Below, one piece after another: positions 313-9,441 of a stretch of DNA of 64,000 nt. The DNA is from Blattabacterium cuenoti (GTDB taxonomy: Bacteria; Bacteroidota; Bacteroidia; Flavobacteriales; Blattabacteriaceae), in assembly GCF_014251995.1 (NCBI RefSeq), contig NZ_CP059205.1:434001-498000 (forward strand), in the 5' to 3' direction. Position 1 is the stretch's first letter, and each line of letters begins with the position of its first letter. The position numbers were made by a program, and so were the translations under genes. Under the pieces are notes generated by a model. That model was not told where the DNA came from and searched no databases. It was given only the letters and a program-made list of their open reading frames with translations.

Positions 313-1557
313 ATGGAATTTATCCAAAAAATAAAACAAAAATTTGGAATTGTTGGATCTGATTATGCCCTACATAGATCCTTAGAAAGAGCTATGCAAG
401 TAGCTCCTACAGACATATCTGTATTAGTACTTGGAGAAAGTGGAGTAGGAAAAGAATTCATTCCAAAAATTATTCATCAATTATCTTCTAGAAAACATCA
501 TTCTTATATTGCTGTAAATTGTGGGGCTATTCCTGAAGGAACTATTGACAGTGAACTTTTTGGGCATGAAAAAGGATCTTTCACGGGAGCTACAAGTATG
601 AGAAAAGGTTATTTTGAAGGAGCCAATGGTGGAACTATATTTTTAGATGAAATAGGAGAACTACCTTTAAGTACACAAGTACGTCTCCTCAGGATATTGG
701 AATCAGGAGAATTTATAAAAGTAGGATCTTCAAAAATTCAAAAAACTAATATACGAATTGTTTCTGCTACTAATTTGAATATGATAGAGTCTATACAAAA
801 AGGTAAATTTAGAGAAGATTTATACTATAGACTTAACACAGTTCAGATTAATGTTCCTCCTTTACGATTTCGTAAAAATGATATCAAATTTTTATTCAAA
901 AAATTTGCTAATGATTTCGCTGAAAAATATCATATGCCATCAGTGATCTTAACGGAAGAATCTTTAAAATATTTAGAAGATTACCCTTGGCCAGGAAATA
1001 TAAGACAATTAAAAAATCTTGTAGAACAAATTTCTGTAGTAGAAAAAAAACGTGAGATTTCTGTAGAAAAATTAAAAGAATACATTCCAGAAAATATTCC
1101 TTCAATATCACTTTCTAAAACATTTTTCCAAGATCTACCTAGGGAAAGAGATTTCCTTTACAAAATTCTTTTTGATATGAAAAAAAATTTAAACAATTTA
1201 AAAAACATAACATTTAAAATGATTAAAAATCATACTGATACAAGATTTATTAAAGAAAATCAACAACTTATGGAAAAAGTTTTCGGAAAAACAATTTATG
1301 ATAGAGATAATTCTATTTTTCAATTAAAGGATTCATCTAGATATAATAAAGATTCAAATCAACTTTATTATGAAGAAGTAGAAGAAGACCAATCTAAATC
1401 ATCGGATAAATTATCTTCTTTTTCTTTACAAACAAAAGAAATAGAATTTATTCAAAAAACTTTAAAAAAAAATAATGGGAAAAGAAGAAAAACTGCCAAA
1501 GAATTAGGAATTTCTGAAAGAACTCTTTATAGAAAAATAAAACAGTATGGTTTGTAA
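313..1557 (+). CDS. Sigma-54-dependent transcriptional activator (AAA+ domain plus Fis-type HTH, no receiver)
   Basis: A 414-residue bacterial enhancer-binding protein. Walker A is GESGVGKE (residues 41-48), the sigma-54 contact loop is GSFTGA (88-93, the usual form is GAFTGA), Walker B is GGTIFLDEIGE (106-116), the arginine-finger region is GKFREDLYYRLN (164-175), and sensor II is WPGNIRQL (226-233). A lysine/asparagine-rich linker of about 130 residues follows. A Fis-like helix-turn-helix (KTAKELGISERTLYRKIKQ) closes the protein. There is no N-terminal receiver, GAF or PAS domain, so activity is presumably controlled by amount or by a partner. In free-living flavobacteria a protein of this type sits between miaB and lptE-secG, as here. 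A -24/-12 promoter candidate lies about 0.8 kb downstream, before groES. The regulon is not known from this sequence. Confidence 0.92.
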   Translation: MEFIQKIKQKFGIVGSDYALHRSLERAMQVAPTDISVLVLGESGVGKEFIPKIIHQLSSRKHHSYIAVNCGAIPEGTIDSELFGHEKGSFTGATSMRKGYFEGANGGTIFLDEIGELPLSTQVRLLRILESGEFIKVGSSKIQKTNIRIVSATNLNMIESIQKGKFREDLYYRLNTVQINVPPLRFRKNDIKFLFKKFANDFAEKYHMPSVILTEESLKYLEDYPWPGNIRQLKNLVEQISVVEKKREISVEKLKEYIPENIPSISLSKTFFQDLPRERDFLYKILFDMKKNLNNLKNITFKMIKNHTDTRFIKENQQLMEKVFGKTIYDRDNSIFQLKDSSRYNKDSNQLYYEEVEEDQSKSSDKLSSFSLQTKEIEFIQKTLKKNNGKRRKTAKELGISERTLYRKIKQYGL

Positions 1558-2090: not shown

Positions 2091-2324
2091 ATGCCTCTTA
2101 TCACGACTATATTAGGATTTATTATTATAATAACATGTTTCTTTTTTATATTAATTGTTTTAATACAAACTCCTAAAAAAGAAAGTATTAATCAAAATTT
2201 TATAGAAAAAGATTTCAAATTTCTTGGAGTTAAAAAAACAAATATTTTTATAGAAAATATTACTTGGTTTTTATCTGTTACTATATTTTTTCTGACTTTA
2301 TTGTTTAACTATTTTTTGAAATAA
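2091..2324 (+). CDS. secG: SecG, preprotein translocase subunit
   Basis: A 77-residue protein with two membrane spans (about residues 3-27 and 54-76) joined by a polar loop. The first span ends with the SecG hallmark LIVLIQTPK, close to the usual VLLQ-x-P-K. The glycine-rich loop of free-living SecG has been lost, which makes it shorter than typical Bacteroidota SecG. It works with SecYE in the inner membrane; SecE and YajC are also in this window. Location just before groES-groEL is the usual flavobacterial arrangement. Identification rests on topology, the motif and context. Confidence 0.85.
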   Translation: MPLITTILGFIIIITCFFFILIVLIQTPKKESINQNFIEKDFKFLGVKKTNIFIENITWFLSVTIFFLTLLFNYFLK

Positions 2325-2383
2325 ATTATGTCATAATGACATTAAAAATTACTAAAATGAAAAAAAATCCAAAATTTTTTATT

Positions 2384-2399
2384 TGGCATGTTTTTGGCT
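2384..2399 (+). promoter_or_regulatory. Candidate sigma-54 (-24/-12) promoter of groES-groEL
   Basis: TGGCAT-N5-TGGCT at 2384-2399 fits the sigma-54 consensus TGGCAC-N5-TTGCW with two mismatches. It keeps the near-invariant GG (2385-2386) and GC (2397-2398) at the exact 12-base pitch. The predicted start near 2410 gives a leader of about 35 bases to groES. An overlapping housekeeping-type Bacteroidota promoter is also possible (TTTG at 2382-2385 and TAAATTAT at 2404-2411, spacer 18), so the assignment is not settled. Confidence 0.5.
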
Positions 2400-2446
2400 G
2401 TTGTAAATTATTAGTATCATAAACTTTAAAAATTATTTAAAATATG

Positions 2447-2722
2447 ATGGAAGTAAAGATTAAACCTTTATCAGATCGTGTGCTTGTACAACCTGATCCT
2501 GCTGAAACAAAAACATCTTCAGGTATTATTATTCCTGATACAGCAAAAGAAAAGCCTCAAAAGGGAACTATTGTAGCAGTGGGAAAAGGGAAAAAAGATG
2601 AACCTATGATTCTAAAAGAAGGAGATAGAATTTTATACGGTAAATATTCTGGAACAGAATTAAAATGGGAAGGCGAAGAATATCTTATTATGCGAGTATC
2701 TGACGTAATAGCTATTATATAA
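2447..2722 (+). CDS. groES: GroES co-chaperonin
   Basis: Ninety-one residues, full length for GroES (Cpn10). It starts [16 protein letters not shown], has the mobile-loop region [17 protein letters not shown] that docks on GroEL, and ends with the [14 protein letters not shown] beta strand. I chose the second of two consecutive ATGs (2444 and 2447) because MEVKIKPL matches the family. It caps the GroEL folding chamber in the cytoplasm and is followed by groEL after 62 bases. A good -24/-12 promoter candidate lies about 35 bases before the start. GroESL is usually very abundant in insect endosymbionts. Confidence 0.98.
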
Positions 2723-2772: not shown

Positions 2773-4425
<1,653 letters not shown>

Positions 4426-4473
4426 CTTGTAATAAGTAATTTAATTTTACATTATTTTATTTTTTAGTTTTTT

Positions 4474-4512
4474 AAAAAAAATAGTGTCTTTGCCTAAAGA
4501 CACTATTTTTTT
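4474..4512. terminator. Bidirectional rho-independent terminator between groEL and the kdsC-like gene
   Basis: A perfect stem, TAGTGTCTTT (4482-4491) with AAAGACACTA (4496-4505), encloses a GCCT loop and is flanked by an A-run before and a T-run after. It can serve both convergent transcripts: groEL on plus, and the phosphatase on minus, whose stop lies 25 bases away. Confidence 0.85.
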
Positions 4513-4536
4513 AGCTTATATTAATTAATTTAAAAT

Positions 4537-5035
4537 TTAAAACCAGTTGTTTTGAACTCTTAAGGTTTTTTCAATAACATCTCTAACACATCCCCTCCCT
4601 CCTTTTTTTGGAGAAACATATTTAGATATATCCTTAACCTCTTGAACTGCATCCACTGGAGAACAAGGTAAAGCTACAGACTTCATAATTTCGATATCCG
4701 GAATATCATCTCCCATATAAAGAATTTTTTTTTTTAATCTTTAAAAGATTACAATATTCATCCAAACACTTTTTCTTATTACCCACACCTTGATAAATAT
4801 GTTTAATGTTTAAATTTCTTAGACGACGAAAAACCATTAAATCCGACCCTCTTGTAATAACACATAAATTGTACCCTTTTTTTTCCGCTATTTGAATAGC
4901 AAATCCGTCTTTAACGAACATTTGACGAACTAAATTTCCATTTGGAAAAAGATTTAAAGTACAATTTGTTAACACTCCATCAACGTCAAATACGAAAGTG
5001 TTAATGTCATTCATTATATTCATGTAATTTTTCAT
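4537..5035 (-). CDS. kdsC: KdsC-like HAD phosphatase (3-deoxy-D-manno-octulosonate 8-phosphate phosphatase), frameshifted in a poly(A) tract
   Basis: The gene is in two frames. The first part (5035 to about 4706) has HAD motif I DVDGVLT (residues 17-23) and motif II ITRGSD, and breaks at NSLYGR-stop. In the neighbouring frame the protein continues as LYMGDDIPDIEIMKS (HAD motif III) through SPKKGGRGCVRDVIEKTL to QNNWF-stop at 4537. The switch point is an 11-A tract on the coding strand (T-run 4725-4735); one A fewer would restore about 165 residues, normal for KdsC. The enzyme dephosphorylates KDO-8-P in LPS inner-core synthesis, but related HAD enzymes act on other sugars, so the substrate is inferred. 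Transcriptional slippage could yield some full-length protein; sequencing error or true decay are alternatives. Confidence 0.75.
4725..4735 (-). other. 11-A slippery tract interrupting the kdsC-like gene
   Basis: Eleven T on plus, read as eleven A in the message. The reading frame before the tract and the conserved frame after it differ by one base; ten A would join them. Confidence 0.85.
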
Positions 5036-8425: not shown

Positions 8426-8791
8426 ATGTGTTTTTCATCTTTATTACATTTATTTTTTTTATCACAACAAAATTCTATTGTAAGCACTATTTGGATGTTT
8501 GCATTAATTTTAATTATATTTTATTTTTTTATAATACGTCCTCAAATAAAAAAACAAAAAATTGAAAAAAAATTTCAGGAAAATCTAAAAATAGGAAATT
8601 ATATAGTGACAAATTCAGGAATACATGGGAAAATTGTAAAAATTATAAATGTTTTTTTTATTATAGAAACTATTTCAGGAAAAATTAAACTTGAAAAAAA
8701 TACAATCTCAAGAGATTTAACACAATTACGTTATAATAGTGAAAATGAGAATACTATCAATTGCAAAAACGATAAAAAAGAAAAAAAATGA
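8426..8791 (+). CDS. yajC: YajC, Sec translocon accessory subunit
   Basis: A 121-residue membrane protein with one span (about residues 19-38) running into the YajC signature FYFFIIRPQIKKQK, then a cytoplasmic beta-rich domain (ENLKIGNYIVTNSGIHGKIVKI). YajC associates with SecDF in the inner membrane. Its last four bases overlap the start of coaE, a sign of translational coupling. The tail is lysine/asparagine-rich, as in other proteins of this genome. The nusB-yajC-coaE order is the common flavobacterial one. Confidence 0.93.
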   Translation: MCFSSLLHLFFLSQQNSIVSTIWMFALILIIFYFFIIRPQIKKQKIEKKFQENLKIGNYIVTNSGIHGKIVKIINVFFIIETISGKIKLEKNTISRDLTQLRYNSENENTINCKNDKKEKK

Positions 8792-9441
8792 AGTTTTTAC
8801 TAGTAGGTATTACAGGAAAAATGGGAACTGGAAAAAGTTTATTTTCTTCTTTTTTAAGGAAAAGAGGAATCCCTGTTTATTCATCAGATAAAAGAGGAAC
8901 AATATTAATGAATACAATAAATGTTATAAAAAAAAATATCATTAAATATTTTGGAGAAAATTCTTATTACAAAAAAGAAAAAGAAGGAGAAAAAAAAATA
9001 AATAAATATTACCTTTCAAAAATTGTTTTCAATGATCCTAATGCATTAAAATTATTATGTTCTATTATTCATCCATGGATTTCAATTGATTTTAAAAAAT
9101 GGATATTCTCTATTATTCAACAAAATAAAATTCTTCCATTTCTTTTTATAAAAGAATCAGCATTATTATTTGAAAGTGGAAGTTATAAAGAATGTAATTT
9201 TATTATTAATATAATTTCTCCTAAAAAAAAAATGATTAAAAGAATTATTAAAAGAGATAACTTAAAAGAATATCAAATTATAAATCGATTAAAAAATCAA
9301 ATATCCAATAAAAAAAGAAAAGAAAAATCTAATATTATAATTAGAAATTATTCATCTATAGATTATTTACAAAACCAAGAAAATAAAATTTTTAAATTTC
9401 TGGAAAAATTATATACTAATCAATATGGGAAAAGGAGATAA
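8788..9441 (+). CDS. coaE: CoaE, dephospho-CoA kinase
   Basis: A 217-residue P-loop kinase catalysing the last step of coenzyme A synthesis. It opens FLLVGITGKMGTGKS, where GKMGTGKS is the Walker A motif, followed by VYSSDKRG (the conserved D after the P-loop) and ESALLFESGSY (family motif xPLLFE). It overlaps yajC by four bases at its start and the bTHX gene by 17 bases at its end. Length and motifs are complete, with no sign of decay. Confidence 0.93.
   Translation: MKFLLVGITGKMGTGKSLFSSFLRKRGIPVYSSDKRGTILMNTINVIKKNIIKYFGENSYYKKEKEGEKKINKYYLSKIVFNDPNALKLLCSIIHPWISIDFKKWIFSIIQQNKILPFLFIKESALLFESGSYKECNFIINIISPKKKMIKRIIKRDNLKEYQIINRLKNQISNKKRKEKSNIIIRNYSSIDYLQNQENKIFKFLEKLYTNQYGKRR

Follow-up and report, generated by a model that had tools for sequence, protein, structure and literature searches.

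The window, a stretch of 64,000 nucleotides of the Blattabacterium cuenoti genome, carries a gene for a sigma-54 activator followed in the same orientation by secG, groES and groEL (Table 1). The second ATG of groES, at 2447, is the start favoured by many relatives. The 119-bp gap between secG and groES contains the palindrome TGTCATAATGACA and the element TGGCATGTTTTTGGCT, which are the subject of this analysis. An earlier note had described the neighbourhood as an activator gene, an lptE relic and secG. Pfam bears out the activator and secG, but the relic is a matter of position only: the interval between them (1558-2090) has no open reading frame of at least 50 amino acids, and tblastn with the proteins found at the LptE position in four free-living Flavobacteriia gave nothing significant there. 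In these four organisms the matching gap is occupied by an extra gene of about 300 amino acids.

Table 1. Features of the groES-groEL locus (positions in the window)
Feature	Position	Strand	Basis or remark
Sigma-54 activator (enhancer-binding protein)	313-1557	+	Pfam PF00158 (E 9e-66), PF25601, PF02954
secG	2091-2324	+	PF03840, E 2e-10
Palindrome TGTCATAATGACA, candidate activator site	2329-2341	+	Perfect palindrome, secG-groES gap
Predicted -24/-12 promoter element TGGCATG-TTTT-TGGCT	2384-2399	+	GG 2385-2386, GC 2397-2398
Predicted transcription start	2410	+	12 bases after the C of GC; sigma-54 promoter geometry
groES	2444-2722	+	PF00166; first ATG at 2444
groEL	2785-4425	+	546-aa ORF; identity by sequence inspection

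The element reads TGGCAT-GTTTT-TGGCT from T2384 to T2399, with GG and GC at a pitch of 12 bases, exactly as first described. The sigma-54 consensus is TGGCACG-N4-TTGCW (also given as TGGCAYRN4TTGCW), with GG and GC 10 bases apart. The element fits it at all but two positions, having T for C at consensus position 6 and G for T in the -12 box (TGGC for TTGC). It lies 44 bases from the first ATG of groES, not about 35 as had been estimated; it is the predicted start that is about 34 bases from this ATG. TGGCATGTTTTTGGCT is the only exact match to TGGCAYN5TKGCW in the 628,453-bp genome, the same pattern read backwards has none, and the full pattern does not occur in 4 Mb of Markov sequence. Since chance would yield 0.04 bare GG-N10-GC pairs in the 119-bp gap, these single-genome statistics were judged too weak, and relatives were therefore brought in.

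Around or just after the predicted start, at 2411-2436, there is also an inverted repeat of the type AACGATTAGTATCGTT, which is found in the same place, at a variable distance, in most congeners (e.g. at loci L032, L042 and L060). None was seen at dnaK or grpE. This repeat may be an operator or a leader hairpin.

Within the genus, groES was located in all 49 genomes, and the element stands upstream of it in every one, with identical spacing. It has the form TGGCATGTTTTTGGC[TA] in 46 of them and diverged forms in the other three (G010, TGGCACATTTTTGGCA; G018, TGGCATATTTTTAGCT; G014, TGGTATGTTATTAGCT); in G008 the element is exact and lies 196 bp from groES. When the sequences are aligned on the element, the commonest base accounts on average for 98.9% of the element, versus 61% of the upstream and 55% of the downstream flank. 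Loss of the GG/GC pair in related strains, which the earlier note had named as evidence against a sigma-54 promoter, does not occur within the genus. The groES site is the sole exact match in most of the 49 genomes. It is nevertheless conservation, rather than the lone match, that places the element far beyond chance. The motif TGNCANNNTGNCA precedes the element in 45 of the 49 congeners.

The proteins that such a promoter calls for are there as well. The rpoN gene, whose presence had been proposed as a check, is an open frame matching all three sigma-54 families (PF00309, PF04963 and PF04552, the activator, core and DNA-binding domains), and rpoN is present in 49/49 congeners. Each of these genomes has one strong match to PF00158, always about 1.5 kb upstream of groES. 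The activator begins with its AAA+ domain at residue 13, without an N-terminal sensor domain, and ends in a Fis-type helix-turn-helix. Its loop reads GSFTGA instead of GAFTGA, at a position that varies among orthologues. The recognition helix LGISERTLYRKIK is identical in the window's activator and in 28 free-living orthologues, and ISERTLYRKI is found in the activators of all 49 congeners. With its AAA+ domain joined to a helix-turn-helix and no sensor domain, the protein resembles PspF of E. coli, to the solved structure of which its AAA+ parts align (E ~1e-55). PspF is the phage-shock activator; it is held by PspA and regulates the psp genes, unlike the chaperone targets proposed here.

The arrangement extends well beyond the symbionts. 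In a comparison set of 80 named Bacteroidota groES loci, TGGCAY-N7-G[ACT] occurs on the coding strand no more than 130 bp upstream of groES in 75. The opposite strand gives 2 such loci, the 130 bp further upstream none, and shuffled sequence 0.2. Twenty-eight of the 80 also have, 1.7-2.3 kb before groES, an orthologue of the activator that likewise lacks a sensor domain. Upstream of the element, a TGTCA box is present in 60 of the 75 loci (8 expected), some of these boxes sitting in the loop of a secG terminator hairpin. The box starts cluster at 17, 27-28, 38, 48-49, ~59, 70, 80 and 90 bp before the element, that is, they are phased to the -24 element with a 10.5-bp period (R 0.80 for 98 boxes; R 0.76 for the 48 boxes outside Flavobacteriia). 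No such phasing was reached in 5000 random sets, with the reservation that related genomes are not independent.

Further sites were looked for in the Blattabacterium genome by pattern searches, with TGGCAYN7GM and a list of one-mismatch sites. Two have the location expected of a promoter: TGGCATAATGATTGAA, 68 bp upstream of the dnaK ATG, and TGGCAAATATTTTGCT, 55 bp upstream of the grpE ATG, both genes being identified by sequence inspection and tblastn. The dnaK site, of the TGGCATAATGATTG (TGGCAT) type, is kept in 20/20 sampled genomes, always as TGGCATAAT[GC]ATTG, and GG-N10-G[AG] in 19 of them. In these genomes it is preceded by an ATGAC-N5-GTCAT repeat, by TGTCA boxes, or by both. The Blattabacterium dnaK boxes fit the period and the phase derived from the free-living loci; counting distinct distances only, 8 of 10,000 random sets did equally well. 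As for grpE, its TGTCANNNTGACA palindrome has just one other copy in the genome, the one before groES. Of 19 genomes, 12 have kept the grpE site together with its palindrome, one shows the two in degraded form, and six have neither. Control of groESL by the activator and RpoN, as the earlier note proposed, finds support, but groESL does not appear to be the only target, since dnaK and grpE have matching sites. Of the 14 matches to TGGCAYN7GM in the genome, all but four lie inside coding, rRNA or tRNA sequence. These four are the groES and dnaK sites and two that were discarded, one of them within a short ORF on the minus strand, the other (G000:186413) on the wrong strand between two genes for ribosomal proteins. 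None of the 14 matches precedes lon, htpG, clpB or skp, genes that the genome may or may not have. G032 (L243, G032:79000-98000; 8562-9240) has two copies of the region that carries the grpE palindrome and promoter site, 633 bp apart, suggesting that the 5' end of grpE has been duplicated in tandem.

In the rest of the family, presence and loss go together. Among 19 members outside the genus, six have rpoN, and the same six have an activator orthologue; in G052, a fragment of 35% identity interrupted by a stop was left out of the count. groES could be read in 11 of the genomes without rpoN, and in none of them does the element or a TGTCA/TGACA box occur within 150 bp before it. Of the rpoN-positive genomes, G053 has an exact -24/-12 site before groES, and G049, G050 and G065 keep TGGCATATTTTT with a palindrome but have lost the C of the -12 GC. 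In G066 and G067, which have kept rpoN and the activator, the groES element is degenerate or unrecognisable; the two proteins may be held there by another target, perhaps dnaK. Both (L071 and L074, respectively) are very small symbiont genomes.

That 2384-2399 is a sigma-54 -24/-12 promoter of groES-groEL appears nearly certain on these comparative grounds. The obvious competitor is an ordinary sigma-A promoter (-33 TTG, -7 TAnnTTTG), the -24/-12 likeness being coincidental or secondary. A candidate exists, since TTTG (2382-2385) and TAAATTAT (2404-2411), which overlap the element, are 18 bases apart in this genome. However, TAAATTAT, singled out in the earlier note as the alternative, is not kept in relatives, the best matches of this kind upstream of the 49 groES genes do not surpass those in shuffled sequence, and the conserved block coincides exactly with -24/-12. 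A second promoter of that kind could coexist with the sigma-54 promoter, but that groESL is transcribed from it instead strikes us as improbable. Still less credible is the idea that the sites descend from an ancestral promoter and have fallen out of use. Decaying regulatory DNA is common in reduced genomes, and the grpE sites are indeed gone in six of 19 sampled genomes; yet the groES element is 99% identical while its flanks are randomised, and all 49 genomes have an intact rpoN and an intact activator gene.

A more serious objection accepts the promoter and questions the box: the TGTCA palindrome could be the operator of another regulator, the neighbouring activator acting from solution or from other sites. 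At grpE, no more than about 20 bp separate the palindrome from the -24 GG, less than for classical enhancers, and the free-living boxes at 17 bp are likewise close. Moreover, the link between activator and box is circumstantial. Against this, boxes, element, rpoN and activator vanish together, taxa that are far apart share the helical phasing of the boxes to the -24 element, and the recognition helix of the activator is invariant across the phylum, as is the box. We hold this objection to be unlikely, though clearly less so than the other two, and binding of the activator to the palindrome and the TGTCA boxes, as candidate sites, to be likely from their co-occurrence.

The explanation that we consider highly probable as a whole combines the promoter, the neighbouring activator acting at the palindrome and a regulon shared with dnaK and grpE. 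The observations behind it are a conserved element, boxes shared between loci, the presence of both proteins and a pattern of joint loss. Sigma-54 RNA polymerase would wait at the element as a closed complex; the activator would bind TGTCATAATGACA, about 50 bp upstream and on the same face of the DNA, build its AAA+ ring, touch sigma-54 through the GSFTGA loop and open the DNA with ATP, transcription starting from near 2410, as the geometry of sigma-54 promoters predicts. The same activator and sigma-54 would also serve dnaK and grpE. The degenerate elements of G066 and G067, the lost C in G049, G050 and G065, the closeness of the grpE palindrome and the distance in G008 count against it.

The arrangement is not peculiar to the endosymbiont for which the earlier note described it. 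It appears to be an old sigma-54 chaperone regulon of Bacteroidota, known from Flavobacterium psychrophilum, where mapping of 5' ends placed sigma-54-type (SM4) promoters at groES-groEL, dnaK, grpE-dnaJ, htpG, lon, clpB and skp (PMC9723704). The -24/-12 promoters at groES-groEL, dnaK and grpE are thus common to both organisms, start-mapped in F. psychrophilum and sequence-based here. There too, to judge from locus tags, a sigma-54 activator gene followed by lptE lies a few genes from groES (PMC9723704). The F. psychrophilum regulon adds lon, htpG, clpB, skp and gliding genes to the three chaperone loci found in Blattabacterium, and three activators are predicted there versus one found here (PMC9723704). 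Its main text on SM4 promoters gives no description of activator sites. A position-weight-matrix survey of Bacteroidota predicted sigma-54 promoters at GroEL, GroES, GrpE, DnaK and DnaJ, most strongly in Flavobacteriia (PMC12316311). This survey, whose reference 80 (Sabree 2009) is cited for sigma-54 dependence of groES, consists of genome-wide COG statistics and, in its available text, treats no endosymbiont, specific activator or upstream boxes. In view of these two studies, neither the promoter type nor its target is new. The retention of rpoN, together with its activator, was found unusual for insect endosymbionts by the authors of the Walczuchella monophlebidarum genome, who tentatively suggested a role connected with nitrogen (PMC3971599). 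The literature searched contained, as far as it was available, no paper describing a sigma-54 chaperone promoter in Blattabacterium, and none on phased TGTCA boxes. What is new is that the regulon has survived in a reduced symbiont, that a function unrelated to nitrogen would explain why rpoN is kept, and that the candidate activator boxes are phased.

Insect endosymbionts rely on chaperonin at very high levels and, as a rule, have hardly any regulators. The groESL, dnaK and grpE set suggests a shrunken regulon inherited from free-living ancestors, and by analogy with F. psychrophilum it may be induced by protein-folding stress. If rpoN and the activator are indeed kept for chaperone control, a symbiont of about 600 genes could still regulate its folding capacity. 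We are inclined, with less assurance, to a wider proposal: that throughout Bacteroidota a single sensor-less activator with an unchanged helix, binding whole-turn TGTCA arrays, would govern chaperones through sigma-54, that in cockroach symbionts and some relatives this system has shrunk to groESL, dnaK and grpE, and that rpoN persists in these tiny genomes chiefly on its account. Bacteroidota would then control chaperones by a route other than sigma-32 or CIRCE, one in which activator, box and spacing rule are defined and can be tested in a cultivable Flavobacterium.

Directly after groEL, at 4470-4515, a strong hairpin followed by a T run (TAGTGTCTTTGCCTAAAGACACTATTTTTTT) is likely an intrinsic terminator. 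On the minus strand beyond it (4537-5035), a KdsC-like phosphatase gene is present as two overlapping frames, split at a poly-A/T tract near 4716-4732, which may reflect a frameshift, a slippage site or a sequencing error.
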